From [Clostridium] aerotolerans DSM 5434 (GTDB taxonomy: Bacteria; Bacillota; Clostridia; Lachnospirales; Lachnospiraceae): a stretch of 64,000 nucleotides of DNA. The translations under genes were made by a program, and so were the position numbers. Positions 2,345-64,000 of the stretch are shown here, piece after piece; position 1 is the first letter of the stretch; every line of letters begins with the position of its first letter. The DNA lies in NCBI RefSeq assembly GCF_000687555.1, contig NZ_JHWJ01000004.1:248001-312000 (forward strand). The letters run 5' to 3'. Below the pieces are notes generated by a model. That model did no database searches. It worked only from the letters and a program-made list of their open reading frames with translations, and was not told the DNA's origin.

Positions 2345-2388
2345 TAAAAAGGACGACTCTTAAAGAAAGAGAAAATTTTTAGAACCGG

Positions 2389-2418
2389 TTGACAAATTGT
2401 CTCTTTCTATTGTATATT
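2389..2418 (+). promoter_or_regulatory. Sigma-A promoter of the binding-protein gene
   Basis: TTGACA (2389-2394), 18-bp spacer, TATATT (2413-2418). Operator 2 begins 7 bp downstream. Confidence 0.7.
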
Positions 2419-2424
2419 TGGTAA

Positions 2425-2440
2425 GTTAGACGTAACTAAC
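2425..2440. promoter_or_regulatory. Predicted metal-regulator operator 2 (binding-protein side)
   Basis: GTTAG-N6-CTAAC inverted repeat overlapping the expected transcription start. It has the same half-sites and spacing as operator 1, so one regulator probably controls both halves of the importer. Confidence 0.55.
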
Positions 2441-2469
2441 CTATAATCCAGCTAAAAGGAGAGATACCA

Positions 2470-3507: not shown

Positions 3508-3917
3508 AGTCATTAGAAGTGGTTCCATACTCCATACACATGCTCATAGTTCTGTCCTGCTGATGCAGACAGACAATAGACGCTTACTAAAAATCAGTGT
3601 GTGATAGCTATTGATCCAAACATATAATACAGATAACACGAAAATACGTCTTGTAACGGAATTTCAGAATGGAGTTTACCTCAAAAAGAGGTCGCCCAAT
3701 TCAGAAGTCGTTCAAGACGTATTTTTACTATTTCCCCAATCACCTATCTTAAATCAATCCATTCAGTCCTTTCCTTTGTCCCCGCTTTTCCTTAAAGATT
3801 TTACGGCATTCCTAAAAGTCTCCGGATTTACGAATGTTTAAGAAAGTTTTCATTGTAGTTTTGGTTATAATTGTATAGAATAATAAGATAGAAAGTAAAG
3901 TCAAAGGAAGTTTTCAT
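3508..3917. other. Intergenic region with a weak promoter, no convincing gene
   Basis: 410 bases between the binding-protein gene and the large secreted-protein gene. A 76-codon frame at 3611-3841 opens with TTG, has no ribosome site and an unremarkable composition, so I do not call it. A possible promoter for the downstream gene is TTGTAG (3853-3858), 17 bp, TAGAAT (3876-3881). No clear terminator is seen after 3507. Confidence 0.5.
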
Positions 3918-10378: not shown

Positions 10379-10423
10379 AAATTAGTTAAAAATTAGATTA
10401 GAAACAGCCAAAAGCTGGCAACG

Positions 10424-10470
10424 GCTGAGGCAACAGGCAGGGTAAAACCGCCTGTTGCCTCAGCTTTTTA
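10424..10470 (+). terminator. Intrinsic terminator of metK
   Basis: Perfect 15-bp stem GCTGAGGCAACAGGC (10424-10438) with its complement at 10450-10464, followed by a T run. Confidence 0.93.
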
Positions 10471-10582
10471 AATTTTAGAATTGTTTTATAAATTCTTACG
10501 GCCATGTGTGTTATAATACCATTACGTTATATAATGATTTTGTCATGTATTTTTAATAGGAAGCATAAGAGAGGCGATAAAA

Positions 10583-25967: not shown

Positions 25968-26741
25968 TTATTCCGTGGCGATGCGGATGGCGCAGCCCAG
26001 TTCTTCACAGTAGGAACAGAATGCATCATCCGGCATCTGATCGGTTAGAATAGAGTCAAACTGACTCACATCTCCAAAGGTCATAAGGGATGCACGGCCA
26101 AACTTTGAGGAATCAGCCAGAAGATAATGCTTCTGGCTTTTTTTAATCGCTGCTTTTTTCACATTATATTCTTCCGTGGAAGCATTGCAGATTCCTGCCT
26201 GTACGGAAATGCCGGTACATGCCATAAAGGCCCGTACAATGTTAAAATCCTCTAAATATTCTACGCAGGAGCTGCCAACAAGAGAGGCAGTATCCCTTTT
26301 TAAGGAACCTGGAAGAACGATTAAGTTGATATTTGGGTAATTCATGGCCTTATTTATGACCTGAACGCTGTTCGTAATCACAGTGACTGTATTCAAATGG
26401 GTCAGATAGTCCACAATATTCATGGTCGTGGTACCACTGTCAATGAATATGATATCCCGTTCTCTCACGTAGGAGGCGGCTAAGGCTGCAATCCGTAATT
26501 TCTTTTGCGCATTCTGATTGGCCCGCTCGTGAAAGGTAATCAGCTCTGGGATAGGAGAAGTGGTTTCTAAGGCAACGACACCTCCGTATACTTTTTCTAC
26601 CGTTCCTCTTGATACCAGTACTTCTAAATCCCTTCGCAGGGTATTTTTTGATATTTCAAAGACTTCACACAGGGTATCTATGGAAGCTGTTTTGTGTTCT
26701 AAAATATATTGTTCCAATTGGTCAATCCGGGAAATTCTCAT
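25968..26741 (-). CDS. DeoR-family transcriptional regulator (probable inositol operon repressor)
   Basis: 257 aa. The N-terminal winged helix-turn-helix includes LEQYILEHKTASIDTLCEVFEISKNTLRRDLEVL. The C-terminal DeoRC sensor domain has DIIFIDSGTTTMNIVDYL and MACTGISVQAGICNAS, the usual phospho-sugar pocket. AAAAGGAG precedes ATG 26741. It is divergent from the inositol operon, the arrangement of IolR, whose known inducer in Bacillus is 2-deoxy-5-keto-D-gluconate 6-phosphate. Identity as IolR is inferred from position. It ends only 3 bp from the GH28 stop codon, with no clear terminator between them. Confidence 0.88.
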   Translation of the reverse strand: MRISRIDQLEQYILEHKTASIDTLCEVFEISKNTLRRDLEVLVSRGTVEKVYGGVVALETTSPIPELITFHERANQNAQKKLRIAALAASYVRERDIIFIDSGTTTMNIVDYLTHLNTVTVITNSVQVINKAMNYPNINLIVLPGSLKRDTASLVGSSCVEYLEDFNIVRAFMACTGISVQAGICNASTEEYNVKKAAIKKSQKHYLLADSSKFGRASLMTFGDVSQFDSILTDQMPDDAFCSYCEELGCAIRIATE

Positions 26742-37411: not shown

Positions 37412-39052
37412 ATGAAACGATATATGGAACATATGATCCGTTCCGCAGAACAGAGAGTGGATCAATTTTTAAGCCTGCAGGTAAAAGACGAAAGAGATGT
37501 ATTTTTCGGAGGGATGAAACGCCCTATCTTAGAGGCAAAGCCTACGATTTATGTGATGGCAGATGCAGCGTCCGTGTATCTCAATGAAAAGAGCCGTTAT
37601 TATAAGAGTGAAAGGCTGTTAAAAGCTATGGAGGCAGCCATCATTTTTATTAAGAACTGTCAAAGGGAAGATGGGAGCTTTGATTACCCGTCCTGTAACT
37701 TTAAATCAGCACCGGATACCTCTTTTTGCTTTAAGCGCCTCATAGCCACCTACCGTCTGTTCCTAAGATACACAGGGGAAGAGGAGCTTGTTTCCTTAAA
37801 GGCTGGCTACCGTTACGTTCTTGTAAAGACACTGACAGCTCTTTTAACAGGTGGTTTTCACACTCCAAACCATCGCTGGGGCATTACGGCGGCTCTCATG
37901 CAGGGAGCAAATCTTGTAAAGGAAGAAAATCCTGAGCTTTCCAGCCAGCTTATGAAGCGTGCTAAACAGTATCTTAATGAGGGCATTGATGGCAACGAGG
38001 AAGGGGAGTACGCGGAGCGTTCCACAGGCAATTATAATGCAGTGGTGAACAACGCCATGATGGCCATGTATGAGGAATCTGGTGACGAGAGCTATCTTGG
38101 TTATGTGGAGCGGAATTTAAAGATGATGCTTTACTACATTGATCCTGATGATACGATTTTTACACAGAATTCAACAAGACAGGATCAGGGCAAGGCAGAT
38201 TACCCGGACAAGTACCTTTACCAGTATTTATATATGGCGGCAAAAACGGGGTTTGATGTATTTGACCGCGCGGCCCATAAAATCATAAAGGATAACACAG
38301 AACGTGGGGATATGGCGCCGGAATGCCTTCACATTATTATGCTTCACGACTTTATGATGAATTATGAATTTAAGGGTTATGGATTCCTTGAGACCTATCA
38401 TAAGCATTTTGAAGAGGCAGGGGTTATCCGTGGGAAAACGACGGAGTATGGCTACAGTATTTTAAAAGGAAAGAGTGCCTTCCTTTTTCTTAAGTTCCAG
38501 GAGACACTTATTTACTTAAAGATTGGGGAAAGCTACTGTGATATCCGGAATTTCATTCCACAGACCATAGAGGAAAAGGACGGCGTCTGCACCCTGACAT
38601 CTGTGGCTAAGGGCTGGTATTATCTTCCTTTTGCTGAAAAGCAAAGTACCAACGATTGGTGGAAGATGGATCATACCAAGCGGGAAATCTTAAACAGCAG
38701 TGAAATTAAAATGACTGTAACCTTAAAGGAGCTTTCCGATGGTATGGAAATCAGTGTGAAGGCAGATGGTCTGGATCAGGTGCCGCTGCGGGTTGAAATC
38801 TGTATTCCGGCAGGAAGTATTCTTGAGAATGAACATTTCCATATGCGTGCGGCAAAAGGAGAAGACATGGTGCTAAGAGATGGGTATGTGACCTTAATCC
38901 ATGGCAATCAGAAACTTCTTTTTGGACCTGGTTATGGAACCCATGAATTTGGGGGACATTATTCAGGAGAAGAAATCAACGAATCCGGCTTCACCATTTA
39001 CTTTAATGATTACACTCCTTATGAAAGAACGTTTTCCATCCGCAAGGCGTAA
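37412..39052 (+). CDS. Alpha/alpha-toroid protein, possible polysaccharide lyase or hydrolase
   Basis: 546 aa, no signal peptide. The first 370 or so residues are helical and aromatic-rich in the pattern of (alpha/alpha)6 toroid carbohydrate enzymes. Candidate active-site stretches are CQREDGSFDYPSCNFKSAPD, GGFHTPNHRWGITAALM (His/Arg), ERSTGNYNAVVNNAMM and NSTRQDQGKADYPDKYLYQY. The last 170 or so residues form a beta-rich domain (ISVKADGLDQVPLRVEICIP), as in heparinase-type lyases. I cannot name the family. It lies 17 bp after the ROK kinase in the same operon and just before an oligopeptide-type ABC importer. Intracellular cleavage of an imported uronic-acid oligosaccharide is a reasonable guess. 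Confidence 0.7.
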   Translation: MKRYMEHMIRSAEQRVDQFLSLQVKDERDVFFGGMKRPILEAKPTIYVMADAASVYLNEKSRYYKSERLLKAMEAAIIFIKNCQREDGSFDYPSCNFKSAPDTSFCFKRLIATYRLFLRYTGEEELVSLKAGYRYVLVKTLTALLTGGFHTPNHRWGITAALMQGANLVKEENPELSSQLMKRAKQYLNEGIDGNEEGEYAERSTGNYNAVVNNAMMAMYEESGDESYLGYVERNLKMMLYYIDPDDTIFTQNSTRQDQGKADYPDKYLYQYLYMAAKTGFDVFDRAAHKIIKDNTERGDMAPECLHIIMLHDFMMNYEFKGYGFLETYHKHFEEAGVIRGKTTEYGYSILKGKSAFLFLKFQETLIYLKIGESYCDIRNFIPQTIEEKDGVCTLTSVAKGWYYLPFAEKQSTNDWWKMDHTKREILNSSEIKMTVTLKELSDGMEISVKADGLDQVPLRVEICIPAGSILENEHFHMRAAKGEDMVLRDGYVTLIHGNQKLLFGPGYGTHEFGGHYSGEEINESGFTIYFNDYTPYERTFSIRKA

Positions 39053-51438: not shown

Positions 51439-52827
51439 ATGTCAGAGTGGAAGAAAAATGACAAGTTTGAAACAGTCATTGAAGATATCAGCGAGACCGG
51501 GGAAGGAATCGGTAAGACCGATGGCTTTACCTGGTTTATTAAAGATACAGTAATCGGAGACAGAGTAGAAGCTAAGGCTATGAAGACCAAGAAGTCCTAT
51601 GGCTTTGCAAGGCTGGAACGAATCCTGGAACCGTCCAAAAACCGTGTGGAACCAAAGTGCCCGGTTGCAAGGCAGTGCGGAGGATGTCAGCTCCAGGCCA
51701 TGGATTATAAGGAGCAGCTTACGTTTAAGGAAAGAAAGATATACAATAATCTGGCTAGAATTGGGGGATTTACTGAGATTCCCATGCTTCCTATTATGGG
51801 AATGGACGAGCCGTGGAGATACCGGAACAAAGCGCAGTTTCCATGGGGGACGGATAAGGAAGGCAATATTATCACTGGATTTTATGCAGGACGTACCCAT
51901 TCTATTATCGGGTGTGAGGATTGTTTGCTGGGCATAGAAGAGAATGAGGATATCCTTAAGATCATTAAGGCTCATATGGAGCGGTTTGGACTTCGCCCTT
52001 ATGATGAGGAAACTCATAAGGGGCTTATTCGTCATACTCTGATTAGGAAAGGCTTTAAGACTGGGGAGCTGATGATCTGTCAGGTGATTAATGGAAAGAG
52101 CCTGCCTCATCAGGAGGAGCTTGTAAAGGAGCTTTTAAAGATTCCGGGTATGACCAGCATTTCTTATAGTGTCAATCGGGAAAAGACCAATGTGATCATG
52201 GGAAATCAGGTGGAGAACCTGTACGGACCTGGATATATTTCTGATTATATCGGAGACGTGAAATACCGGATATCCCCTCTGTCCTTTTATCAGGTCAACC
52301 CGGTTCAGACGGAGAAGCTTTACGGTACAGCCCTTGAATACGCCGGGCTTACTGGAGGGGAAACGGTCTGGGATCTTTATTGTGGTATTGGAACCATATC
52401 ACTGTTTTTGGCTCAGAAGGCGAAAAAGGTGTATGGAGTTGAGATCGTGCCCCAGGCCATTGAGGACGCAAGGGAGAATGCCAGATTAAATGGTATGGAG
52501 AATGTGGAGTTCTTTGTAGGGAAGGCCGAAGAGGTGCTTCCAGAGCAGTTTGAGAAGAATCAGGTGTATGCGGACGTGATTGTGGTTGACCCGCCTAGAA
52601 AAGGGTGCGATGAGGTGTGCCTCGAAACCATTGTGAAGATGGGGCCGAAGCGGGTGGTTTATGTAAGCTGTGATTCTGCCACTCTTGCAAGGGATTTGAA
52701 GTATTTGGCGGAGAGAGGGTATGAGCTTAGTAAGGCTAGAGGGTGTGATATGTTTCCGCATACTGGGCATGTTGAAGCGGTGATAATGATGACGTATTGT
52801 GAACAAAGAGAAAAAGGTATAGTATAA
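51439..52827 (+). CDS. rlmD: 23S rRNA (uracil-5-)-methyltransferase, RumA/RlmD family
   Basis: 462 aa. An N-terminal TRAM domain (about 5-60) is followed by an Fe-S motif CPVARQCGGCQLQ with a later Cys pair (IIGCEDC). The SAM-binding Rossmann fold has WDLYCGIGTISLFLAQKAKK and VYGVEIV. The catalytic region is VVDPPRKGCDE, with VYVSCDSATLARDLKYL providing the nucleophilic Cys. I start at ATG 51439 (MSEWKKND), because GGAGG lies 5 nt upstream; an earlier ATG sits on that ribosome site itself. In Firmicutes one such enzyme (RlmCD) can modify two uridines, so the exact positions are open. It is the last gene before the AT-rich region. Confidence 0.93.
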   Translation: MSEWKKNDKFETVIEDISETGEGIGKTDGFTWFIKDTVIGDRVEAKAMKTKKSYGFARLERILEPSKNRVEPKCPVARQCGGCQLQAMDYKEQLTFKERKIYNNLARIGGFTEIPMLPIMGMDEPWRYRNKAQFPWGTDKEGNIITGFYAGRTHSIIGCEDCLLGIEENEDILKIIKAHMERFGLRPYDEETHKGLIRHTLIRKGFKTGELMICQVINGKSLPHQEELVKELLKIPGMTSISYSVNREKTNVIMGNQVENLYGPGYISDYIGDVKYRISPLSFYQVNPVQTEKLYGTALEYAGLTGGETVWDLYCGIGTISLFLAQKAKKVYGVEIVPQAIEDARENARLNGMENVEFFVGKAEEVLPEQFEKNQVYADVIVVDPPRKGCDEVCLETIVKMGPKRVVYVSCDSATLARDLKYLAERGYELSKARGCDMFPHTGHVEAVIMMTYCEQREKGIV

Positions 52828-52863
52828 CCAAAATATGTTGTGGTTATGGAGTTGAAAATGAGT

Positions 52864-52909
52864 AAAAAAAACAGGCTGAAAAGTGCAAATTTTGGTCTGT
52901 TTTTTTTTG
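52864..52909 (+). terminator. Intrinsic terminator of rlmD
   Basis: AAAACAG (52868-52874) pairs with CTGTTTT (52897-52903), with an inner AAAA/TTTT stem, inside A and T runs. It marks the left boundary of the AT-rich cluster. Confidence 0.8.
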
Positions 52910-53536
52910 GTAGATGACAAAGGGTAGTTGGAAAGTTAGAATCTTTAAAAAGAAAATTTTATACGGATAAAAAGAGTAGACTATATTATTGGACAACGAA
53001 TCAATATCCTTTTTTGTTTCAATAAGGGTATTGATAGCTCAAAAAGATTGTAAGGAAATGTAATGTAAAAGCATGTGAGCTTAAAATCCTAGTGTTTTTG
53101 TTTTACATATAGATACTATCAGATAGAGAGTGAGAATTTTTTGTTAAAGAATAAAAAACTGTACCGGATACAGCTCCGCAAGTAAAGTAATAGATGAATG
53201 CTGAAAATGGTGAAATGATAGCATGCAATAGAAGATACAATTAAGCAAATCCATTGATATTTCTAGTAACCACTTATTAGCTGAGGTCTGTTGTAAATTA
53301 AACTTTAGCACCTGTACTAATGATAGAGATCCTAATAATAGAATTAATTTAAAAATATTGCATCTTAATGTATTTATTTATGTTATTGTTAATATATATA
53401 TAATATAACTTGGACTTTTAGCTTAAGTTAATTGTTTTAATCGGTAATTATGATTTGCTATATTAGAAGAATTACATAAAAAGGTAAGAGTAAGGTCTAA
53501 GAGTGATTCTAATTTTGTTTAAGGGGGTGAAGTGAC
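52910..53536. other. AT-rich intergenic region upstream of the peptide cluster
   Basis: About 630 bases with no convincing gene. Base composition drops sharply relative to the left. It holds a 10-bp hairpin with no T run (TCAATATCCT, 53001-53010, with 53025-53034) and a TATAAT at 53399-53404 without a good -35. A short less AT-rich stretch lies around 53160-53180. The long untranslated stretch may hold the promoter and control sites of the cluster. No transposase, integrase, tRNA or attachment repeat is seen. Confidence 0.6.
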
Positions 53537-53716
53537 ATGTCTGAAATAATTAAATTGTCTTCTAATCAGAAAGAAGAACTAATGAAGCAGGCAGGTATGA
53601 ATTGGGAGGAACTGGCATCAAATTTTAATGATACTCAAAACAGTCCTGAATTATTAAAATTAACTAATTCTACAGTTGTTGTTCAAGGTAAAACTTGGAG
53701 AGTCGAGCCTGAATAG
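53537..53716 (+). CDS. Putative RiPP precursor peptide (59 aa)
   Basis: Small gene with a strong ribosome site (AAGGGGGTGA, 6 nt before ATG 53537) and a TAG stop at 53714. Residues 1-43 form a hydrophilic, helix-prone leader, rich in Lys/Glu/Asn/Gln, with KEELMKQAGMNWEELASNF in its centre and ELLKLT near 38-43. The last 16 residues, NSTVVVQGKTWRVEPE, differ in character: three Val, one Trp and several beta-branched residues that suit radical C-methylation or cross-linking. There is no Cys, no Gly-Gly cleavage site and no signal peptide. It is followed by a 17-bp hairpin and then by radical SAM and U32 genes, the usual place of a precursor gene. I do not recognise the family; the core boundary is a guess. 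Confidence 0.78.
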   Translation: MSEIIKLSSNQKEELMKQAGMNWEELASNFNDTQNSPELLKLTNSTVVVQGKTWRVEPE

Positions 53717-53732
53717 AAGTATACAAAACGTT

Positions 53733-53789
53733 AATGATAACGATGCAGAGTATCAATTATACATCTGCATCGTTATCATTATTATTTTA
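53733..53789 (+). terminator. Strong hairpin between precursor and biosynthetic genes
   Basis: Perfect 17-bp stem AATGATAACGATGCAGA (53733-53749) with 53764-53780, 14-nt loop, then ATTATTTTA. The T tract is imperfect, so partial termination or 3'-end protection of the short mRNA is expected. Either would make the precursor far more abundant than the enzymes. Confidence 0.8.
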
Positions 53790-53804
53790 CTGGAGGAATT
53801 GTTG

Positions 53805-55352
53805 ATGTTTAGACTAGCTCTAATTAATCCACCATATTTAGATGAAGAAAGTTTTGAAAAAAGCCTTGCTCCAATGGGTATTTGCTATATTGCAGCTTAT
53901 TTAGAAAATATGAATATAGCATGTGATGTATATGATTTTTCCTCGAGTGATTTGTCTAACGATGAGTTAATTGAAAAATATCAATTAGTTAGTTATAACC
54001 TTATAGCTTTTTCCACTTATACTTGCTCCTTTAAAGATACTGTTGCTTTGGCAGAAGCAATAAAGAACCATAATTCTAAAGTTATAATTATTATGGGAGG
54101 GCATCATGTCACTCTTGCACCATCAGAGGTTCTTAGGGATTTCCCAGTAGTAGACTTTGTTACGGTGGGATATGGTGAGCAGCTTATGTTTGATCTAGTA
54201 TCTGCCTTGAATAAGGGATATTCTTATAAGGATATACCAGGGATTGGATATAAAGATGGTGAAAATATCGTTGTTAATGACACAGTTATAAATGATATAA
54301 ATTTAGATTTAATACCATTTCCAAAGAGAGAAATAGTCACTGATTATGGATATAATACTGCTAATCTTATTGAGGGAAAGAAAATCATAAACATTGTAAC
54401 TAGTAGAGGGTGTGTTTATAATTGCCATTTTTGCGTTAACACAAAAAATAATCATTGGCTGCCTCGTAGTGTAAATAATGTTATTGACGAAATGAAAAAT
54501 TTATATGATGGAAATCAATTTAATCATATTTTTTTCACTGACTGTAACTTTTTAATAGATCCTTATAGGGCTATGGAGATTGTTGAAAAAGTTTATGAGT
54601 TTAATAAAAATATAACAATGAACTTTCATGCACGTTGTGATCAGATTGTTAAATATGAGAAGATAATCAGGAAAATGGGGGCGGCTGGATGTGCGTTTAT
54701 TAATGTGGGAGTAGAAAGTAATAGTGAGGCTGTTTTAAAGCGGTTTAACAAAAGGATATCTCCAGAAACAAATCAACATGCAATTGAAATTTTGAAAGAT
54801 GCAGGAATACATCCTAATGTTTACATGATTATGTTTGAGGCGCTTGTAACTATAGATGATATTTACGAAAGCTATATATTTCTAAAAAAAAATAAGCTAA
54901 CTAATTTTGTTGGAGTACATAACTTATATAATTCACTGATGCCTTTTTATGGGACACCATACTGGAATAATTACGGAGAATTTTATACTCAAACGATTCA
55001 TGGAATATCGAAAACATATTTTCAGAATAAAGATGTTAAGAAATTTTACTATGTTATTAAATTACTTAGAGAAGAATATGAAAAGGAAATATCATCTCAG
55101 GTAGCTGTATTTATGAAGTTACAAGTGACTCATCCAAAATTAATTGATAAAAATTTATATCAAAATTACATTCTTGTACAAAATTTTCAATACATAGCGT
55201 TTGAAAAATTGTTGGAATATTATAAAAACCAAAAGGAACTTATTTCGTATGTTGAACTAAAGGCAAATCCATTAATCTCAGACTATATAAATGTTATTGA
55301 AGAAAATAGAGTGCTTTTAAAGGAAATAGAATCATATTACAGTTTTAATTAG
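53805..55352 (+). CDS. Cobalamin-binding-domain radical SAM enzyme 1
   Basis: 515 aa. Residues 1-140 or so form a B12-binding-like Rossmann domain (FRLALINPPYLDEESF, APMGICYIAAYLE, IIIMGGHHVTLAPSEVL, FVTVGYGEQL). The radical SAM barrel follows, with the cluster motif C-x3-C-x2-C at residues 203, 207 and 210 (SRGCVYNCHFCVNT). Downstream are MNFHARCDQI and GVESNSEAVLKRFNKRISPE, typical of B12 radical SAM proteins. The C-terminal 120 residues are helical. I start at ATG 53805, behind GGAGG; the longer frame overlaps the precursor and hairpin. Known relatives methylate unactivated carbons or epimerise and rearrange; the reaction here is unknown. Very AT-rich codon use. Confidence 0.92.
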   Translation: MFRLALINPPYLDEESFEKSLAPMGICYIAAYLENMNIACDVYDFSSSDLSNDELIEKYQLVSYNLIAFSTYTCSFKDTVALAEAIKNHNSKVIIIMGGHHVTLAPSEVLRDFPVVDFVTVGYGEQLMFDLVSALNKGYSYKDIPGIGYKDGENIVVNDTVINDINLDLIPFPKREIVTDYGYNTANLIEGKKIINIVTSRGCVYNCHFCVNTKNNHWLPRSVNNVIDEMKNLYDGNQFNHIFFTDCNFLIDPYRAMEIVEKVYEFNKNITMNFHARCDQIVKYEKIIRKMGAAGCAFINVGVESNSEAVLKRFNKRISPETNQHAIEILKDAGIHPNVYMIMFEALVTIDDIYESYIFLKKNKLTNFVGVHNLYNSLMPFYGTPYWNNYGEFYTQTIHGISKTYFQNKDVKKFYYVIKLLREEYEKEISSQVAVFMKLQVTHPKLIDKNLYQNYILVQNFQYIAFEKLLEYYKNQKELISYVELKANPLISDYINVIEENRVLLKEIESYYSFN

Positions 55353-55385
55353 ATTTCTAGTTACAAAAAAATAAATGTTTATTTT

Positions 55386-55420
55386 AAAGAGATTGTTTAT
55401 AAATATGCAATCTTCTTTTT
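55386..55420 (+). terminator. Intercistronic hairpin in the peptide cluster
   Basis: Stem AAAGAGATTG (55386-55395) with CAATCTTCTTT (55408-55418, one bulged T), then T residues. It is likely a weak attenuator between radical SAM enzyme 1 and the U32 gene. Confidence 0.55.
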
Positions 55421-55437
55421 ATAAGGAGATTAAATAG

Positions 55438-56556
55438 ATGCTTAAAAATTTCTGCATTTCAACTGACTTTTTGTTAAAAACAATTAGTCAACTGAGTGAG
55501 TTAGATAAGATAAAAGAAAATAAGATAAAAGAAGTTTTTGGGAATATTACACCAAGCATTTTTTCTTCCGGTAGATCAGAACTCTATTTACCGAAATGTA
55601 ATATTGAAGAGCTGGCTATTTATATAAGCTATGCTCATAAGCATGGTATTGAATTTAACTATACTTTAAATGGAATATGTATGTCGAATCAAGAGTTTGA
55701 TTCATGTGGATATAAGAAATTACTTAATTTTGTAAGTGATTTAATTGATATTGGAGTAGATCGCTTTACAATTTCATCTCCTGTTTTGATGAATATTTTA
55801 TCAACGCATTTTAAGAATATAAAAATAACAGCATCTGCTATATGTCAAATCAATTCATTAAGCATGGCAAGAGATTATGCTGGAATAGGGGGAGTGGACA
55901 GATTAGTTATTTTTGAGGATTCTACTAGAAATTTTCAATTATTGAAGAAGATTCACAAAGAATTAGGAATTGAAATGGAGATCATAGTAAACCAGCCGTG
56001 CCAATTCGGATGTATCTATAGAAATTTTCACAGAATTGGATTGAGTCATGAAAGTATAGATGAGAGTGGTAAATTTAAGATTGATGATTACTATCAAGTT
56101 TGTTGGAAAAAAAAGTTGGCTAATCCCAGTGAAATGTTAAAAATACCAACAATTATTAGGCCTGAAGATTTGCACCATTATGAAATGGCCGGAGTAAAGT
56201 ATTTCAAAATAGTTGACAGGATGATAAAGTCTATTAATATTAAAATAATTGAGAGCTATATGGATGAAAGTTATGAAGGGAATTTATTTGACATTTTACC
56301 TGGAGAGTTTAATGCATTGTATCTTGATAATTCGGAAATGAATGGATTTATTGATTATTTCTTAAATGAGAAGAATATTTGTCATATAGGATGTAGTAAT
56401 TGTGGATATTGTGATTCTTATGCAAAGAAAATAATAGTCTCTGAGGAAAGAGTTGAAAAAAAACTAAATAAGGTAGAGAGTGATATAAGAGATTTTTTAG
56501 AAGACGGTCCAAAGGAGTCGACGGATTCATGGAGGCATATTCTATCAAACTGTTAG
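55438..56556 (+). CDS. U32-family TIM-barrel Fe-S protein
   Basis: 372 aa. The fold follows peptidase U32/UbiU-UbiV proteins: AIYISYAHKHGIEFNYTLNG, DLIDIGVDRFTISSPVLMNI, ITASAICQINSLSMARDYA, GGVDRLVIFEDSTRNFQLL and EMEIIVNQPCQFGC. Cys 188, 192 and 222 match the U32 cluster region. A second group at 315, 319, 322 and 325 (C-x3-C-x2-C-x2-C) lies near the C-terminus and may hold another cluster. Several U32 proteins (UbiU/UbiV, RlhA, TrhP) are O2-independent hydroxylation factors rather than peptidases, so peptide hydroxylation is possible; proteolysis is the older family label. Set 16 bp before the SPASM-protein gene. AAGGAG precedes ATG 55438. Confidence 0.82.
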   Translation: MLKNFCISTDFLLKTISQLSELDKIKENKIKEVFGNITPSIFSSGRSELYLPKCNIEELAIYISYAHKHGIEFNYTLNGICMSNQEFDSCGYKKLLNFVSDLIDIGVDRFTISSPVLMNILSTHFKNIKITASAICQINSLSMARDYAGIGGVDRLVIFEDSTRNFQLLKKIHKELGIEMEIIVNQPCQFGCIYRNFHRIGLSHESIDESGKFKIDDYYQVCWKKKLANPSEMLKIPTIIRPEDLHHYEMAGVKYFKIVDRMIKSINIKIIESYMDESYEGNLFDILPGEFNALYLDNSEMNGFIDYFLNEKNICHIGCSNCGYCDSYAKKIIVSEERVEKKLNKVESDIRDFLEDGPKESTDSWRHILSNC

Positions 56557-56571
56557 AGGAGATTTTATTAT

Positions 56572-57711
56572 ATGATGTATATGAACCATATCAATATAAT
56601 TCAGATGGATGAGAATAAGTATCTTATTTATCAAAGTTTACTAGGCAATGTCAGGATAATAAATAAAAAAATGCTTATGTTAATCGTTAATCCTGAATTA
56701 GCAGATAAAGTTGAGAGTGATGAAGTTAAACGATATGTAAAGCTTTTTAAAAAAGAAGGCTATATTGAAATGTCAAATCCTGAAGTAAAGAATTCCACCT
56801 TAAAAAATATAGCAGAAAGAAATGTATTGAATATTGATTTGAGTGGAGAGTATTTATCTCCGAGTAAGGAAGAGTCATTGCTGGTAATTCTAAAAGATAT
56901 ACTAAGCTGTATGGAGCGGAATAAGCTGTATGTTACTATAAAAGACGGATTTACTCCAGTAAAATATGATTTGATTCAGAGAATAATCAAAATTTTATCG
57001 CAGTTCAATAATAAAAATATTCAGTTGTGTATTCGTTTTCCTATTGAGGTTTTAACTAATGACAGATGGATTGCTCTATCATTTCCCAAAGATACCGCAC
57101 TAGAGGTGTATATGAAAGAATTGTTAGTACCAGAATTTTGTCTTTTAGAAAAATTAATTAATATATATGATACAAGAAATATAATAATACGGTATAGAAG
57201 TAAAAATATAAATATAAATGTAATTTATATTGAAGAAGTCTTTAAAAAAATAAAAAATAATTTTATAAGATTTAATCTTGATATTGAATTTATTAAGGCT
57301 GATAATCCTTCGCAGATAATAGAGAAAATAATAGAAATACAAGAATTGGCTAAATTGTATCAGGTAAATGTATTTGGATGGTGGTACAAGCCATTTGAAA
57401 ACATAATTAATTCTAATCCTAATAGTTTTTGTAATACCTATGAGAGCCAAATTTCTATAGGGTTACGAGGTGAAATTCAATACTGTAAGCAGCATTGTGC
57501 ATTGAATATACAGGAAAGATATTCTGATTTTGAAAACCGAACCAAAAGTTTTGAAGAAAAAGTAAAGGTTAGAAGGAATTTATGCTACGGATGTAAAATT
57601 GAAGGCTTTTGCAAAGAAGGTTGTATTTATTGGAGAGAGCAGGATAGAAATTTTATTTGTGACTTTCTAATAGAGGTAACTGAAAGACTTCTTGTTATGC
57701 AGTATAGTTAA
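56572..57711 (+). CDS. Degenerate radical SAM/SPASM-domain protein
   Basis: 379 aa. Residues 1-70 or so resemble the PqqD-like N-terminus found on many peptide-modifying SPASM enzymes (KYLIYQSLLGNVRIINKKML, YVKLFKKEGYIEM). At about 85-120, where a radical SAM C-x3-C-x2-C motif should follow, there is none; only lone Cys residues occur. The C-terminus keeps a full SPASM-like Cys set at 287, 305, 309, 338, 341, 347, 351 and 363 (LCYGCKIEGFCKEGC). It may bind auxiliary Fe-S clusters and the precursor without doing radical chemistry itself. AGAGGAG lies upstream of the tandem ATGs at 56572. Extremely AT-rich. Confidence 0.75.
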   Translation: MMYMNHINIIQMDENKYLIYQSLLGNVRIINKKMLMLIVNPELADKVESDEVKRYVKLFKKEGYIEMSNPEVKNSTLKNIAERNVLNIDLSGEYLSPSKEESLLVILKDILSCMERNKLYVTIKDGFTPVKYDLIQRIIKILSQFNNKNIQLCIRFPIEVLTNDRWIALSFPKDTALEVYMKELLVPEFCLLEKLINIYDTRNIIIRYRSKNININVIYIEEVFKKIKNNFIRFNLDIEFIKADNPSQIIEKIIEIQELAKLYQVNVFGWWYKPFENIINSNPNSFCNTYESQISIGLRGEIQYCKQHCALNIQERYSDFENRTKSFEEKVKVRRNLCYGCKIEGFCKEGCIYWREQDRNFICDFLIEVTERLLVMQYS

Positions 57712-57740
57712 TATATGAAATGCTTTATGAGGGAAATTCT

Positions 57741-59639
57741 ATGTCGGAAATTATATATATACATCCAATTAACAATCAAAATCCTTTTGTAGTACCCATT
57801 GGTACCATAGCGGTAATTAATGATATAAAATATCCTAAAAAAGGATATTATTCTAATGAAGTGACAGTAGAAGATATAAAACAGGCAAAAATCATTATAA
57901 TGGATTTGCATTGGTATCATTCATTATGGTCTGTAACCCGGATTGCCAAAGAGATAAAGCTTGTTAATAACCGTGTAAAAATCATACTTGGAGGATATAC
58001 AGCTACAATATATGCAGAAGAACTATTAACGAAACAGGATATAGATTTTGTTGTTATCGGAGATGGGGAAGTAAGTATCAGTAGTTTAGTGAATTTGTTG
58101 ATGGAAGGCACACGGGTAGAGGGTATACCGAATGTCCTTTCTAAAGATATTTCATACTGTGAAAAAAAGCCTGCTTCAAAAGAAGACTTTAACAGATTAG
58201 ATTACTATACTATTGATTGGTTTCCAACATTTATAAAGAAAGTGAAAGAGAATTGTCAAAATGATATTTTTGAAGGAAATGATAATTCTTATTGGCCAAT
58301 TATACCTGTTAATCGAGGATGTCCGTATTCTTGCGAATTTTGTTATGGATCACAGGAGAATACAAGTATACTTTTTTTTAGAAAGCCCATTTTTAGAGAC
58401 TATATAAGAATTAAAGAAGACCTTTGTAATTTAGAAAAAAATGATCTCGTTCAAAATGTATATTTTATTGGTGATTTTATAAATTTTTATAGTGAAGAAG
58501 AATGTCGACGGATCTTGGATAAGCATTATAATCTTAACTTGTATTATGAATTTTTTAACTTGCCTGATTTACAACTTTTAAAATTACTTATTAGCAGATT
58601 TAACAAAATTTATTTGACTTTTTCATTATATAAGAATCATGGAGAATCGTTGGAAGTAGTGCCAGTGGATGTATTATATAAAATAATAGAGCTAATTGAA
58701 AATGAATCTTATATTAAGTTTTTTGTATTTGCTCATAAAAATCAGTATGTAGAAATTCCTGAGCGAATTAAAAAATATATATCATACAATGATGGTTGGC
58801 ATGTTGTGCAACCTAATACCAAATATATGGAAGAAAGTGTAAAGTATACAGAATTTTATGAGTTTATGGAAAAGACAGAAAAAACATACGGAAATAAGTG
58901 GTATCAGATACATTCAGTGATTATGGAGGATAATAGCTTAGCAGACCATAACCAGAAGATATTGATGAAAGAGAGTGAAGCATTAAAGAATATATATTGC
59001 GAAGTTCTTGGAGAAAATTTTGCCTGGGATGCTCTTAGGTTTCGTGTTAAATACATAAAAAGTTCTATTAAAGAGTTCATTCAAGAACATTTCAACCAAT
59101 TAAATTTGGGAGGTGAGTATTATTTAGTTGAAAACCAGAATGATGGCGATTTTGTATATTTAATAAAGTTAATGGAATTAAGTAACAATCATAGCAGGTT
59201 AAAATTTTCAAGTGAAAATCTTGAGATTCTTAAATATACAACATTCAGGACTCCAGATAATTTTTTAGATGCTATCAAAGAACCTAATAAAAATAAAAAG
59301 CTAAAGAATTGTATTAAAATATTTTTATTAATACAGAAGTTGTTATTTGAAGATTATATCTGCTCAAGAAAAGAATTAACAGTAATTTGGGATGAATACG
59401 AAAAACATATTTTAGGCTTTGAGAAGAGGAGTAAAAATACATATAAAGAAGTTATATTATTGATTCAGGATGAAAGTATTCTTTTATATAATATTTCAGA
59501 AGAGGTATTATATAGATTAGACAGAAAGGATTTACAGGATGCATTAGCTTTAATCGCAGATATTAAGGGACATTATGTAAGGATTAAAGATAAGAGAAGG
59601 GTAGCTGATATTTTTGGTGTAATTAAGCTATTAATTTAA
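57741..59639 (+). CDS. Cobalamin-binding-domain radical SAM enzyme 2
   Basis: 632 aa. The N-terminal B12-binding-like domain has IIMDLHWYHSLWSV (a D-x-H-x-x-S variant of the D-x-H-x-x-G lower-ligand motif), ILGGYTATIYAEELL and FVVIGDGEVSISSL. The radical SAM motif is at Cys 194, 198 and 201 (NRGCPYSCEFCYGS). The region after the barrel is long (about 300 residues) and unlike known domains I can name. I use ATG 57741, behind GAGGGA; an ATG 21 bases upstream has no ribosome site. The residue after the third cluster Cys is Tyr, as in many B12 methylases. Substrate is unknown; the precursor peptide is the obvious candidate. Confidence 0.9.
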   Translation: MSEIIYIHPINNQNPFVVPIGTIAVINDIKYPKKGYYSNEVTVEDIKQAKIIIMDLHWYHSLWSVTRIAKEIKLVNNRVKIILGGYTATIYAEELLTKQDIDFVVIGDGEVSISSLVNLLMEGTRVEGIPNVLSKDISYCEKKPASKEDFNRLDYYTIDWFPTFIKKVKENCQNDIFEGNDNSYWPIIPVNRGCPYSCEFCYGSQENTSILFFRKPIFRDYIRIKEDLCNLEKNDLVQNVYFIGDFINFYSEEECRRILDKHYNLNLYYEFFNLPDLQLLKLLISRFNKIYLTFSLYKNHGESLEVVPVDVLYKIIELIENESYIKFFVFAHKNQYVEIPERIKKYISYNDGWHVVQPNTKYMEESVKYTEFYEFMEKTEKTYGNKWYQIHSVIMEDNSLADHNQKILMKESEALKNIYCEVLGENFAWDALRFRVKYIKSSIKEFIQEHFNQLNLGGEYYLVENQNDGDFVYLIKLMELSNNHSRLKFSSENLEILKYTTFRTPDNFLDAIKEPNKNKKLKNCIKIFLLIQKLLFEDYICSRKELTVIWDEYEKHILGFEKRSKNTYKEVILLIQDESILLYNISEEVLYRLDRKDLQDALALIADIKGHYVRIKDKRRVADIFGVIKLLI

Positions 59640-59674
59640 GTATATATCTTACTAAGTTGGAGGAGGTATGTAGT

Positions 59675-61675
59675 GTGAAGATTATTTTTATCAGATCGCC
59701 TTTTGAAGCTGATGAAGAGTGGTATCTAGATCTGCCATTGGGAATTCTAAATTTGGCAACAGTACTAAAGAATAACCATTATGATGTTGGAATAATAGAT
59801 TTGCAGTTATATAAGGCAGATAATTTTTTTCAGGGTGATCACAGAGATTTTGATAGGATTGCTAAAAAGCTAACAAAAGATTCGGAAGTCGATATTCTCG
59901 CTTTTTCCATTATGAGTTGCTCTTTTCCCGAAGTAATAAAAATAGCTGAGGCATGTAAGAGAAATCGACCCAATATTAAGATATTATTTGGGGGTGCTCA
60001 GCCGTCACTTGTTGCAGAAGAAACTTTAAAGTATTTTAATGCAGTAGATTATGTATTTAGAGGTGAAGGGGAACGTGCAATTACTCAAGTCGTAGATGCT
60101 ATAAGGGGAGAATTACCTTTTCATATGGCACCTGGGCTCGTTTTTAGGGAAAAAGGAAATATAATTACAAATTCGGAGCCAGAATTGATAGAAGATTTAG
60201 ATGAAATACCTTTTGTTGATATTAATCTTTTAGTAAGAAAAGAAGAATATGTTCTCAAAGGTAACACCATATCTATAGATGCAGGAAGAGGATGTCCTTT
60301 TAAATGTAGTTTTTGTGCAACAAGTATTTTTTGGCGAAACAAGTTTAGAATGAAATCAGCAGAGAGAATAGTAAGTGAAATAGAATATTATCACACCAAT
60401 TTTAAGTGTGACAGATTTAACTTACATCATGATTTATTTACTTATGATAAAGCTTTTGTTGAAAAATTTTGTGATTTACTTATAAGTAAAGGATTAAAAG
60501 TTAAATGGGCATGTTCTTCGAGGGCGGCTTATATTAGCAAGCAACTTTTAGAAAAAATGAAAGAGAGTGGATGTAATAATATTTTTTATGGTTTGGAATC
60601 TGGCTCAAACCATGTTCTTAAGAAAATGAAAAAAGGAAATACTTCTGATATGGCATTAAAAACTATAAGAAATAACTATGAAGCAGGAATCTCTGCTATA
60701 TATTCATTTATTATTGGAATACAAGGAGAGACATTAAAAGATTTAGAGCAAACACTGAAAATGGCTATATATGGAAAAGTGAAAGGAGCCAAAATAGTAC
60801 TTGTAAATCAATTACGTCCGGAATCAGCTACTGAGATGTTAAAAGAAATTAATAATGATTTTATTTTAAATGAAGACTATGTTATACAAGAATGTCTTGT
60901 TGTTAAAAATTGTAACGAAACTATTGACTTAATAAAGAAATATCCCCATCTTTTTAGCCACTTTTACTTTGTAGATACAAAAGAAATTCAAGTTAATAAA
61001 TATATAGAATATGCAAATGACCTCCACTATATTATAAATCTATTTGCTTTTACGTTATACGTATTATGCTATAAGATAGGAATTTCTATATTTGAGATAC
61101 ATGAGAAATTTAAGTCTTTATATTATAAGGAATTAAACCTTAATAAGCTCACTATGTTAAATTTGCAACAAATAGCATCATTATTCCCAAAACTCATTAA
61201 AATATCATATTCTAATATTGAAGGGTATAATTATTTGACGGATTTAGCTTATTATGAATGCAGCTTAGCTAAAAAGAAAGAGAACACAGCGAAAGTAGAT
61301 TATTTAGGATTACAAACCAACCAAATAACACCAAAAGATAGACCTTACATCAGGCTTCAAGGAAGCATAGAGCAATATAATTATAATCTGTTCGATATTA
61401 TTGAAAGTATTAAAGCAGAATTTGTTTTGGAAAATATTGTACTGGAACCGTACCACATTATTGTAGATAAAGAAGATGAAAACATTAATAAGGTAATAAA
61501 AATAGACCAATTTACCTATGACTTTCTTGCTTTGTGTGACGGTCAAAGAAGTGTAGGAGAAATTATTGTGGTAGTTTACGAAAAGAAACCTTACATGTCA
61601 ATAAAAGATATAACTAAGAAGATATTTGAAATTACATCAGCTCTTAATAAAGAAGGCTATCTGGCATTTCATTAA
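59675..61675 (+). CDS. Cobalamin-binding-domain radical SAM enzyme 3 with C-terminal PqqD-like domain
   Basis: 666 aa. B12-binding-like domain at about 1-150 (DLPLGILNLATVLKNNHYDV, ILAFSIMSCSFPEVIKIAEA, ILFGGAQPSLVAEETL, YVFRGEGERAIT). The radical SAM motif is at Cys 207, 211 and 214 (GRGCPFKCSFCATS), followed by SSRAAYISKQLLEKMKESG and YGLESGSNHVLKKM. The last 65 or so residues (IDQFTYDFLALCDGQRSVGE, ITSALNKEGYLAFH) match the PqqD/RRE winged-helix pattern used by RiPP enzymes to bind leader peptides. Start is GTG 59675, with GGAGGAGG 8 nt upstream; the longer TTG frame overlaps that site. This domain is the best direct evidence that the cluster acts on a peptide. Confidence 0.9.
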   Translation: MKIIFIRSPFEADEEWYLDLPLGILNLATVLKNNHYDVGIIDLQLYKADNFFQGDHRDFDRIAKKLTKDSEVDILAFSIMSCSFPEVIKIAEACKRNRPNIKILFGGAQPSLVAEETLKYFNAVDYVFRGEGERAITQVVDAIRGELPFHMAPGLVFREKGNIITNSEPELIEDLDEIPFVDINLLVRKEEYVLKGNTISIDAGRGCPFKCSFCATSIFWRNKFRMKSAERIVSEIEYYHTNFKCDRFNLHHDLFTYDKAFVEKFCDLLISKGLKVKWACSSRAAYISKQLLEKMKESGCNNIFYGLESGSNHVLKKMKKGNTSDMALKTIRNNYEAGISAIYSFIIGIQGETLKDLEQTLKMAIYGKVKGAKIVLVNQLRPESATEMLKEINNDFILNEDYVIQECLVVKNCNETIDLIKKYPHLFSHFYFVDTKEIQVNKYIEYANDLHYIINLFAFTLYVLCYKIGISIFEIHEKFKSLYYKELNLNKLTMLNLQQIASLFPKLIKISYSNIEGYNYLTDLAYYECSLAKKKENTAKVDYLGLQTNQITPKDRPYIRLQGSIEQYNYNLFDIIESIKAEFVLENIVLEPYHIIVDKEDENINKVIKIDQFTYDFLALCDGQRSVGEIIVVVYEKKPYMSIKDITKKIFEITSALNKEGYLAFH

Positions 61676-61822
61676 CATTAATATGATTAAGAAAATTGGG
61701 AAATATATATTATAATTTGAACCTTTATACCAGTTGTAATAGATGCTATTTAAGAAAGATGGGAAGTAAGTTTAGATGTCATCTGCATGTAATATAAAAA
61801 TTATAAAAAGGTAATTTTGCAA

Positions 61823-63457
61823 ATGAATTTAAATAAAATAGTCAAACCATATATTTATAAGTATAAGTGGAAATTTGCTTTATTTTTCTGTTTGGGGATC
61901 ATAGTTTGGATTTCTTCAATGGTAATTCCCTACTTAACAGGAACATTTATAGATTCGCTTTTAGGGCAGAAAAGTTATGAAATTATATATGTTTATACGG
62001 CTTTATTAGCTATAATAATGACTTTTGATACAGTGCTGAAATATGCGTGCAATATCTTATTATTGCATTTGCAAAATAAAATGTCATTTGATATGAACAT
62101 AGATTTTATTGAACATATCAAAAAACTGCCTATTATGTTTCTTCAGTCTAGTAAATCTGCTTACCTAAGTCAAAGGGTGCAGGGGGATTGTAATAGTATT
62201 ATATCTTTCGCGGTAAATAATTCATTTAATATTGTTATAAATATATTGACACTTCTGGTAACCACTGTAATTTTATTTGTAATTAATTTGAAGTTGGCAA
62301 TAATTTTAGTGATCCTAATACCGATTTACATAAAAGTATATTTTATGTTTAAGAAACCATTATACGAAATTGGATATGAATTAAAGGAAAGCCAAAATCA
62401 ATTTTTTTCATCCGTAAATGACCAGTATATTAATATAGGCTTGATAAAAGTGAATGCGATTTATAATTTAGTGAACAGTCAACTGACAGATGAATTTTCT
62501 CGATTATTTAATATTTTATTAAAATATGGGAAAGTATCATTTAAATTTTCAACATGTGATAAAGTGATTAATGATGTAGCCAGCGTGATTATATTTTTTG
62601 TCGGTGGCTATCAGATACTTAATAATTTGATTACAGTGGGAGAGTATTTAATGATTAGCAATTATTTTTCCATGTTATTAAAATGTACGAGTTTTTTTAT
62701 GAATTTTGGTAAGTCGTATCAAGATGCAATGGTGTCATTTGGTCGGTTACAAGAAATCAAAGGAATGAAAAGCGAGAAAAATGGATGCAATCGAATTTCA
62801 AGTATAGAATCGATTGAAATTAAGAATTTATTCTTTTCGTACGATGAGCAGAAGAATATTTTAAACGGTTTTAATTATAAATTTATGAAAGGCAATACAT
62901 ACTGTATTATAGGAGAAAATGGCACTGGAAAAAGTACTTTTATTAATGTCTTAATTGGATTATATAATGGCTTTTATAGGGGCGATATTCTTTATAATTC
63001 CATGAGAATAGAAGAATTAGATATGTACCATATCCGCCATAAATTAATTGGCGTGTCAGAGCAGGAGCCTACATTAATAAACAGTACATTATTGGATAAC
63101 TTAACTTATGGTTTAGATACTCAAAATAAAGAACAGATAATGTATTGGTGTGACCGGTTTGACTTATTTCACTCTTTAAAAGAAGATGGTAGGGGACTAG
63201 AATTAGATATATATGAAAATAACAGTAATATTTCTGGGGGTGAAAAACAAAAAATTTCTTTAATAAGGTTATTATTAAAGGACCCTGATGTACTAATTTT
63301 AGATGAACCCACATCAGCTTTTGATTTTATTAGTATAGAAACATTTAAATCTGTTATAGATGAAATTAAAAAAGATAAAGTCATATTTATGATAACCCAT
63401 AATCAAGAGTTAATGGAAATTTCTGATGAAGTAATAAATTCAAAAGATTTTATTTGA
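61823..63457 (+). CDS. ABC exporter (fused membrane and ATPase domains)
   Basis: 544 aa type I exporter half-transporter. Residues 1-310 or so hold six predicted membrane helices (FALFFCLGIIVWISSMVIPY first). The ATPase domain has Walker A GENGTGKST near 364-371, signature NISGGEKQKISLIRL, Walker B VLILDEPTSAFD and switch MITHNQ. There is no N-terminal C39 peptidase domain, so it cannot cleave a leader itself. ATG 61823 is preferred over a TTG two codons earlier; AAAAGG lies upstream of both. It probably exports the mature peptide as a homodimer and may give immunity. The 147-bp gap before it may contain a weak promoter. Confidence 0.9.
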   Translation: MNLNKIVKPYIYKYKWKFALFFCLGIIVWISSMVIPYLTGTFIDSLLGQKSYEIIYVYTALLAIIMTFDTVLKYACNILLLHLQNKMSFDMNIDFIEHIKKLPIMFLQSSKSAYLSQRVQGDCNSIISFAVNNSFNIVINILTLLVTTVILFVINLKLAIILVILIPIYIKVYFMFKKPLYEIGYELKESQNQFFSSVNDQYINIGLIKVNAIYNLVNSQLTDEFSRLFNILLKYGKVSFKFSTCDKVINDVASVIIFFVGGYQILNNLITVGEYLMISNYFSMLLKCTSFFMNFGKSYQDAMVSFGRLQEIKGMKSEKNGCNRISSIESIEIKNLFFSYDEQKNILNGFNYKFMKGNTYCIIGENGTGKSTFINVLIGLYNGFYRGDILYNSMRIEELDMYHIRHKLIGVSEQEPTLINSTLLDNLTYGLDTQNKEQIMYWCDRFDLFHSLKEDGRGLELDIYENNSNISGGEKQKISLIRLLLKDPDVLILDEPTSAFDFISIETFKSVIDEIKKDKVIFMITHNQELMEISDEVINSKDFI

Positions 63458-63540
63458 GGCAAAACTGTTTATGACTCATAAATAACATAATTTGAAAAAG
63501 ATTATGACATTTTTTATAAACTAAAGGAAGAGTAAATTCT

Positions 63541-64000
63541 ATGAATGTAAGAACTATTCAATTAGAGGAAGCTTCACAATTTGAACAGATTGGAATGGCA
63601 GTCAATAGTAAAAAACTTAACTTGCATCAATGGCTGGATATGGGGAGGACAAGGCTTGAGTGGTGCTTTGTCATTGAAATAGAAGGAAAATTTCAGGGGA
63701 GAATTATTTATGGAATTTTTGATGTGCATCCTTGTGACTTAAAAATATGGCAAATGAAAATAGCAGATTCTGTAAATAATTTTTTGGAAGTGGGAAATAA
63801 GCTTCTAACGGATAGTATAGAAGTATTAAAATTGAAAGGTTTTAAAACGGTGGAGTACCATCTCTATTCAACAGCTTCATATATTATTGAAATCTATCAA
63901 TCCTTATTTAGAGAACTAGGCTTTTGCATAATGCAAGAGAAAGAGAGTTTTGAGGCTAATCAAATTCGTTGTGTAGAAACATCGAATAGGCTTCATTATA
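63541..64000 (+). CDS. GNAT-like acetyltransferase (partial, runs off the right edge)
   Basis: Opens at ATG 63541 behind AAGGAAG and stays open for 153 codons to the window end. RLEWCFVIEIEGKFQGRIIY resembles the central strands of the GNAT fold. LKIWQMKIADSVNNFLEVGNKLL and KTVEYHLYSTASYIIEIYQS fit the acetyl-CoA-binding helix and the following strand, but no clear Q/R-x-x-G-x-G/A loop is visible. The assignment is therefore tentative. It is 83 bp downstream of the exporter and shares the AT-rich composition, so it probably belongs to the cluster, as tailoring enzyme or self-resistance factor. Confidence 0.6.
   Translation, partial: MNVRTIQLEEASQFEQIGMAVNSKKLNLHQWLDMGRTRLEWCFVIEIEGKFQGRIIYGIFDVHPCDLKIWQMKIADSVNNFLEVGNKLLTDSIEVLKLKGFKTVEYHLYSTASYIIEIYQSLFRELGFCIMQEKESFEANQIRCVETSNRLHY

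Follow-up and report, generated by a model that had tools for sequence, protein, structure and literature searches.

Gene content of the cluster

The stretch analyzed here (the window) comprises 64,000 nucleotides of the [Clostridium] aerotolerans DSM 5434 genome (class Clostridia; bases 248001 to 312000 of contig C4; 4.73 Mb in total, with a completeness rating of 99.97%). Toward its end lies a cluster of genes, all on the + strand, that by its gene content is a candidate new class of ribosomally synthesized and post-translationally modified peptides (RiPPs). The order is a gene for a 59-aa peptide, a hairpin, a B12-binding radical SAM (S-adenosylmethionine) enzyme (rS1), a U32-family protein, a SPASM protein, two more B12-binding radical SAM enzymes (rS2 and rS3), an ATP-binding cassette (ABC) exporter and a GNAT acetyltransferase, with intergenic gaps of 88, 85, 15, 29, 35, 147 and 83 bases. 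An earlier reading of the letters alone (the sequence-only reading) had listed these parts, from the 59-codon open reading frame (ORF) and the hairpin to the GNAT-like gene, on one strand, and all of them are present. It had also placed the cluster at 53537 to 64000; the start holds, but the operon continues beyond the window to the equivalent of position 64452.

The peptide gene

The 59-codon ORF (53537..53716, +) is a genuine gene. Its Shine-Dalgarno (SD) sequence, AAGGGGGTG (53521..53529, +), lies 7 bases 5' of the ATG. Its pairing to the 3' end of 16S rRNA has an energy of −17.1 kcal/mol, stronger than at any other of the 10 starts compared (rS3 is second, with −13.5 kcal/mol). Among ORFs of 15 to 120 codons on the + strand from 52828 to 64000, it alone has an SD of −8.5 kcal/mol or lower. 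When the 977-base region 52828-53804 was shuffled 1,000 times with its dinucleotides preserved, a + strand ATG ORF of at least 59 codons appeared in 40 shuffles, and in none of the 1,000 was it accompanied by an equally strong SD. The codon score (0.162) falls among those of six cluster genes (0.133 to 0.177); 2% of 312 shuffled segments score as high.

The peptide contains no Cys, Tyr or His, its C-terminal part reads ...LTNSTVVVQGKTWRVEPE, and no Pfam family matched it. A small gene stands beside modifying genes, as is general for RiPP loci, and we regard the peptide as the probable precursor. Cys-based RiPPs (sactipeptides, ranthipeptides and lanthipeptides) were discarded as models, since 59 residues with 0 Cys allow no thioether links. 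Between the peptide gene and rS1 there is an AU-rich hairpin (53732..53781, +) with an 18-bp stem, a one-base bulge and 4 inner pairs, whose folding energy is −28.8 kcal/mol (z of −8.6). It was absent from the output of a terminator scan (0 terminators found), and it might act as a partial terminator or as an mRNA stabilizer. Both the strong SD and the hairpin are consistent with a precursor gene.

B12-binding radical SAM enzymes

The three enzymes are rS1 (53805..55352, +; 515 aa; PF02310 and PF04055), the divergent rS2 (57741..59639, +; 632 aa) and rS3 (59675..61675, +; 666 aa, with a GTG start). The C-x3-C-x2-C motifs described by the sequence-only reading are intact in all of them, at residues 203, 194 and 207, respectively. 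All three exceed the Pfam cut-off for the B12-binding domain; for Radical_SAM, rS1 and rS3 do so, whereas rS2 stays under it (20.8 versus 29.5 bits) and reaches 95 bits against TIGR04190, a family with a cut-off of 500. The nearest curated family of rS3 is the RiPP C-methyltransferase ApyD (NF050148; 234 bits over residues 21 to 433), which makes it ApyD-like but short of the cut-off of 750 bits for this equivalog. Searches of 391 genomes of the class found rS3 in 23 (at 1e-30) and rS2 in 3, own genome included (at 1e-12). As for mobile elements, 11 pattern matches of rS3 in viral contigs gave 0 confirmed, and the 167 plasmid records were all below 60% identity, with 0 covering 80% of the query.

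In the tree, rS1 is sister (support 97) to a B12-binding radical SAM enzyme from the nonribosomal peptide synthetase (NRPS) cluster of a Lachnospiraceae metagenome-assembled genome (MAG), locus L103, where a gap of 12 bases separates the end of the enzyme gene from the U32 gene that follows. rS2 is sister (support 99) to an enzyme of Omnitrophota (L137), with one gene between this enzyme and a U32 gene. L137 and the Aminicenantes locus L138 carry five and four B12-binding radical SAM genes, respectively, around their U32 genes. rS3 falls within an ApyD-like clade of 8 rows (support 100). One member of this clade, in L094, sits between two peptides with sub-threshold matches to the Nif11 leader (22.8 and 18.3 bits; cut-off, 32.3), in a locus that also holds an ABC exporter with a C39 domain. 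As a whole, L094 (1602-15347) is a RiPP-like cluster from the same family, with Nif11-like peptides, radical SAM-motif genes, the rS3-like enzyme and two large ABC exporters, of which the one checked has the C39 domain. Another member, in L095, from the genus of the window, is preceded by a short ORF that matches no family. The relatives in L091 to L093 are near-copies, of which those of L091 and L093 precede ORFs of 2540 and 2369 aa that we read as NRPS genes. Judged by such neighbors, rS3 relatives occur in both RiPP-like and NRPS-like loci.

The U32 protein and its relatives

The U32-family protein (55438..56556, +; 372 aa) matches PF01136 over residues 93 to 184 (38.2 bits; cut-off, 22.4), and a profile of 10 of its relatives matches the structure 5d88 at 5.1e-16. 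In an alignment of 16 sequences, C188, C192 and C222 are found in all 16 and C81 in 11, while the C-terminal C315, C319, C322 and C325 are kept in 14, 14, 14 and 15; the protein probably binds an Fe-S cluster. U32 oxidases carry out O2-independent hydroxylation in ubiquinone and RNA modification; prephenate provides the oxygen in the ubiquinone case and is required in the RNA cases, with the mechanism still open (PMC11574389 and PMC6747719). Most U32 proteins have been argued to bind a 4Fe-4S cluster (PMC6747719).

Among 391 genomes of the class, 15 have a U32 relative at 1e-15. A profile scan of a collection of 84,980 species gave 446 relatives among 513 pattern matches, and 80 loci of these were retained; 20 of the 80 have adenylation, condensation or ketosynthase signatures, assigned by sequence motifs rather than by Pfam. 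Searches with U32 alone gave 69 pattern matches in genome contigs, with 0 confirmed, and 0 matches in plasmids. In a FastTree phylogeny of 104 rows, the window U32 is one of 32 rows that form a clade with support 86; one has to widen this to 51 rows to reach a set supported by 95 or more, with 23 of the 51 labeled as thiotemplate loci by these motifs or, for L035 to L037, by giant ORFs. Outside the NRPS-like loci, one relative (L040) is near a phosphopantetheine-carrier gene (20.9 bits; cut-off, 20.8) and another (L039) belongs to a terpene cluster that includes a squalene-hopene cyclase. With relatives in NRPS-like, acyl carrier-bearing and terpene loci, this U32 family seems to move between clusters of varied chemistry in the role of a tailoring enzyme. 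A 103-aa ORF of L042 was dropped as an acyl carrier, with no Pfam match.

Several of these loci deserve description. L039 (843-19743) combines the squalene-hopene cyclase with a prenyl synthase, DXS, a B12-binding radical SAM enzyme, U32 and a row of five radical SAM-type genes of similar size (two of the five checked by Pfam), and O2-free oxidation of a terpenoid is possible there. The NRPS cluster of L103 (8483-15923) has the B12-binding radical SAM enzyme, U32, a thioesterase-like ORF and DAHP synthase, followed by a GNAT-radical SAM fusion. In L115 (10001-12088) and L116 (184-2274), the U32 gene is followed by a GNAT gene (Pfam) and no NRPS motif was found; the window cluster likewise ends in GNAT. 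Nine Asgard archaeal loci (L124, L126, L127, L128, L151, L152, L156, L162 and L169) repeat one gene order, with two ORFs of about 455 to 490 aa, a B12-binding radical SAM gene in most, an ORF of about 390 to 400 aa and then the U32 genes.

We also surveyed 95 U32 loci (91 distinct) for genes around prephenate, with a Pfam check for L100 and L103, and found chorismate mutase or DAHP synthase in seven. Chorismate mutase is present in three. In L100 it forms a fusion with a chorismate-binding enzyme, separated from U32 by an amidotransferase gene (593-3861); in L141 it is free and starts 7 bases 3' of U32 (both genes at 9962-11411); and in L107 it lies on the other strand. DAHP synthase is present in L103, L113, L116 and L043. 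Control DNA of 269 kb, window included, contained 0 such genes, versus about 1.3 expected at the rate of the U32 loci, from what is a small sample. Chorismate genes at some U32 loci are as expected of a prephenate-using enzyme.

SPASM protein, exporter and acetyltransferase

The SPASM protein (56572..57711, +; 379 aa) is below the cut-off of TIGR04085 (16.6 versus 27 bits) and has seven cysteines in the pattern C-x12-G-x4-C ... C-x2-C-x5-C-x3-C-x11-C, which we take to be the SPASM pattern for auxiliary clusters. As the sequence-only reading had noticed, it contains no CxxxCxxC triad. Without this SAM-binding triad it could hardly start a radical and, since the auxiliary ligands are kept, it may act as an electron-relay or substrate-binding partner. 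The exporter (61823..63457, +; 544 aa) has fused membrane and ATPase domains by Pfam, which detected no C39 peptidase in it. The GNAT gene (63541..64000 and 452 bases past the window, +) had been called GNAT-like from a truncated frame; the in-window part gives no match, but the full 303-aa protein matches PF00583 with 28.5 bits (cut-off, 20.7).

Genomic context

The cluster is part of a variable segment of 20.6 kb (52783..64000, continuing to window-equivalent position 73363) that is absent from G320 and G321, the nearest of 24 congeners by their rlmD-like gene (96% identical). BLAST homology to both ends at 52782 and resumes at 73364, with ca. 3.25 kb in place of the segment. In G320 this replacement DNA encodes a MatE transporter (Pfam) and has two further ORFs, which by our reading resemble a methyltransferase and a regulator. 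The homology of a third congener (G299) also breaks nearby (52845), with one match resuming at 73354. GC content drops where the rlmD-like gene ends, to 0.26 to 0.31 at 53 to 64 kb and 0.34 to 0.40 at 64 to 73 kb, versus about 0.45 for the host. Because of the gap in the congeners and this composition, the segment was probably acquired from outside. Five ORFs 3' of the GNAT gene correspond, by Pfam, to an rve transposase (about 2.4 kb away), an esterase, an AraC regulator, an isopropylmalate synthase and a PhzF-like protein. Elsewhere in the window, a 546-aa ORF (37412-39052) had no Pfam match at 1e-3.

The SPASM protein was found in 2 of 299 genomes of the family (its own and one weak match of 66 residues at 3.6e-4) and, within the genus, in 1 of 25 (its own). 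None of the neighborhoods of 15 plus 80 U32 loci and 7 of the rS3 loci carries the block of modification genes, and a typed motif had no match in the window.

Proposed pathway

In our view, the operon probably encodes a RiPP pathway that has not been described before and serves an anaerobe, combining cobalamin-dependent modification at carbon with U32-type, O2-independent oxidation. P450s and other O2-dependent oxygenases are unusable for anaerobes, some of which still functionalize unactivated carbons. The 59-aa peptide is the sole scaffold candidate seen, because the genome has no match to an NRPS condensation domain at 1e-3; Pfam recognized no scaffold-making gene in the variable segment either. 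An NRPS acting in trans is disfavored by the same lack of condensation domains, and a terpene scaffold like that of L039 was rejected, with no such gene recognized in the segment.

From these parts we infer a peptide as the substrate, and the reactions, their order, the product and its function would be as follows. The peptide would be produced in excess, given its very strong SD and the hairpin ahead of the enzyme genes. The C-terminal tail of rS3 would hold its leader, as might a domain at the N terminus of the SPASM protein. Unactivated carbons of the core would be altered by the three cobalamin-dependent radical SAM enzymes, most likely by C-methylation as in ApyD and PoyC. U32, probably together with rS1, would oxidize the core without O2, most likely by hydroxylation, by analogy to UbiU/UbiV, RlhA and TrhP. 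The SPASM protein, with its auxiliary Fe-S ligands kept and its SAM-cleaving site lost, would bind the substrate or relay electrons. Finally, the ABC protein would export the product, a protease encoded elsewhere would cleave it, and the GNAT enzyme might acetylate it or protect the producer.

In its fullest form, which we advance tentatively, the proposal is that of a first RiPP class in which U32 hydroxylates a peptide without O2, taking the oxygen from prephenate. It would work next to the three radical SAM enzymes that use cobalamin and to a SPASM protein turned relay for electrons or substrate after losing SAM chemistry. The U32 clade would be spread through NRPS, polyketide-like, terpene and peptide clusters of anaerobes as a counterpart of P450s, and the chorismate mutase or DAHP synthase carried in some of these loci would provide the oxygen donor. 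The sequence-only reading had also proposed that the genes build and export a heavily modified peptide. What it observed was right, and its interpretation is plausible but unproven: the real small gene, the ApyD-like rS3 and the lack of condensation domain matches are on its side, whereas the PqqD signal is weak and the U32 clade is mostly in NRPS-like loci.

Several results weigh against the RiPP pathway as proposed, and some of them concern leader binding. The tentative leader-binding domain is a PqqD-like segment at the C terminus of rS3 (61400..61663, +; residues 576 to 663), whose Pfam PqqD match (61454-61567) reaches 12.4 bits, under the cut-off of 23.4. A purpose-made profile of PqqD-like proteins had 30 rows and, after dropping an off-target row (L208), 29. 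With the 29 rows the tail alone scored 9.2 bits, narrowly above the best of 2,000 shuffles (8.7), and hhalign gave 23.1 over 87 columns, versus 17.0 or less in 60 shuffles. However, whole rS3 (6.0 bits) was second to an unrelated ORF of the window (7.7 bits), which was also first with the 30-row profile (6.5 versus 5.6 bits). This ORF encodes 257 aa on the − strand (25968-26741). Neither rS2 nor the SPASM protein gave any signal with the PqqD profile, and the tail region is without counterpart in 4 of 6 aligned rS3 relatives, while L091 and L093 carry a longer tail of their own. AlphaFold models made without relatives were unreliable for both the rS3 tail (mean pLDDT of 51.2) and the SPASM protein (47.8), and fold searches of the PDB with these two low-confidence models returned nothing usable. 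Residues 1 to 67 of the SPASM protein were predicted, with low confidence (49 to 66 by block), as three strands followed by three helices; RiPP recognition element (RRE) domains have been described with three helices and three strands (PMC10635010). The evidence for a leader-binding domain is weak and partly contrary. A PqqD-type gene over the cut-off does exist elsewhere in the same genome (L053, at G000:C12:114400-114546).

The remaining objections concern conservation and chemistry. The peptide matched 1 of 341 genomes of the class, its own, and 0 plasmids, so that no precursor relative was found there, and no homologous cluster appeared in the samples searched to provide a second case for comparison. 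Pfam recognized no protease in the operon, neither chorismate mutase nor DAHP synthase turned up in the window and the 18 kb that follow, and the chemistry of B12-binding radical SAM enzymes extends well beyond methylation. The U32 cysteines (CX3CX29C plus the C-terminal four-Cys motif) do not follow the published CX6CX15CX3/4C, or the CXnCX12CX3C of UbiV, which places this protein outside the characterized oxidase subgroup.

Alternative explanations

The alternative that best survives, although we judge it rather unlikely, is that the substrate is a small molecule, or an intermediate bound to a carrier, that is produced elsewhere in the genome and tailored by the enzymes, the 59-aa protein being an accessory such as a carrier, a regulator or an immunity protein. 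The company kept by the relatives speaks for this and, again, against a peptide substrate: 21 of the 31 other rows of the U32 clade are in loci with NRPS-type signs, and two loci of the rS3 relatives L091 to L093 have the ORFs of 2369 to 2540 aa. In the genome at hand, however, a condensation domain is missing at 1e-3 despite its near completeness, no scaffold gene was recognized in the segment (the rest of the genome was not scanned for polyketide synthases or ligases), and no Pfam family matched the 59-aa protein.

A RiPP pathway in which U32 is a leader peptidase or a structural Fe-S partner instead of an oxidase is also unlikely. Peptidases gave the family its name, the spacing of the cysteines departs from that of characterized oxidases, and the operon offers no other recognized protease. 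Yet the conserved cysteines are of the Fe-S type, as argued for most of the family (PMC6747719), oxidases of the U32 family have been described (PMC11574389), and relatives of this very protein have chorismate mutase or DAHP synthase genes in their loci or belong to a terpene cluster. That the operon reflects decay or a chance gathering of genes, with no pathway left, is highly improbable, for even if it is confined to one genome among those searched and has the transposase close by, its frames are all open and tightly spaced, with SD sequences of their own and even composition and codon use.

Should the RiPP pathway be confirmed and U32 act on the peptide, it would be, as far as the literature searched shows, the first U32 oxidase in natural-product chemistry. 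The literature covered (most subscription papers fall outside) contained no U32 enzyme recognized in biosynthetic clusters, no paper joining RiPP, U32, radical SAM and cobalamin and none joining U32, nonribosomal peptide, anaerobic and hydroxylase. It would also give this family, for which the mechanism is open (PMC11574389), a substrate that is soluble and can be encoded, and the chorismate mutase or DAHP synthase at some U32 loci makes a testable claim on the oxygen donor. A specialist would be surprised by the U32 enzyme and by how widely it occurs across biosynthetic clusters of anaerobes.

Comparison with known systems

Within our own survey, L103 (MAG Th196P3bin150) has an rS1-like enzyme and U32 adjacent and in the same order as in the window, but it has an NRPS scaffold and DAHP synthase, and neither the peptide nor an rS2-type, rS3-type or SPASM protein was matched there by BLAST as a gene of its own. 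Among described RiPPs, the aminopyruvatide (apy) system resembles the window cluster through rS3, which is ApyD-like over residues 21 to 433. ApyD is an RRE-containing B12-binding radical SAM enzyme that makes beta-methyl-Tyr on a short RiPP peptide (PMC10635010). The MNIO, P450 and methyltransferase of apy were not matched in the window cluster by Pfam, and the latter adds two B12-binding radical SAM enzymes, U32 and the triad-less SPASM protein.

Proteusins (polytheonamide) share with the proposed pathway the C-methylation of a ribosomal peptide by a B12-binding radical SAM enzyme, as with PoyC. The window precursor differs by having no nitrile-hydratase-like leader (no Pfam match), and a PoyD-like epimerase is missing, since every radical SAM gene of the cluster has a B12 domain. 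In grasp-with-spasm systems the SPASM maturase also lacks the radical SAM triad, as does the SPASM protein of the window, but there is no ATP-grasp match in the window cluster (Pfam). The bottromycin pathway uses three B12-binding radical SAM methyltransferases on one small peptide, and the window has the same number of such enzymes and one small peptide, without a YcaO match in its eight proteins (Pfam). The sequence-only reading knew of no RiPP class joining three such enzymes to a U32 protein; bottromycin takes the novelty away from the three enzymes, and U32 stands as the unusual component. With UbiU/UbiV, RlhA and TrhP this U32 shares the family and its conserved Fe-S type cysteines, but it has another cysteine spacing and a C-terminal four-Cys motif, and the substrates of those characterized members are quinone precursors or RNA.

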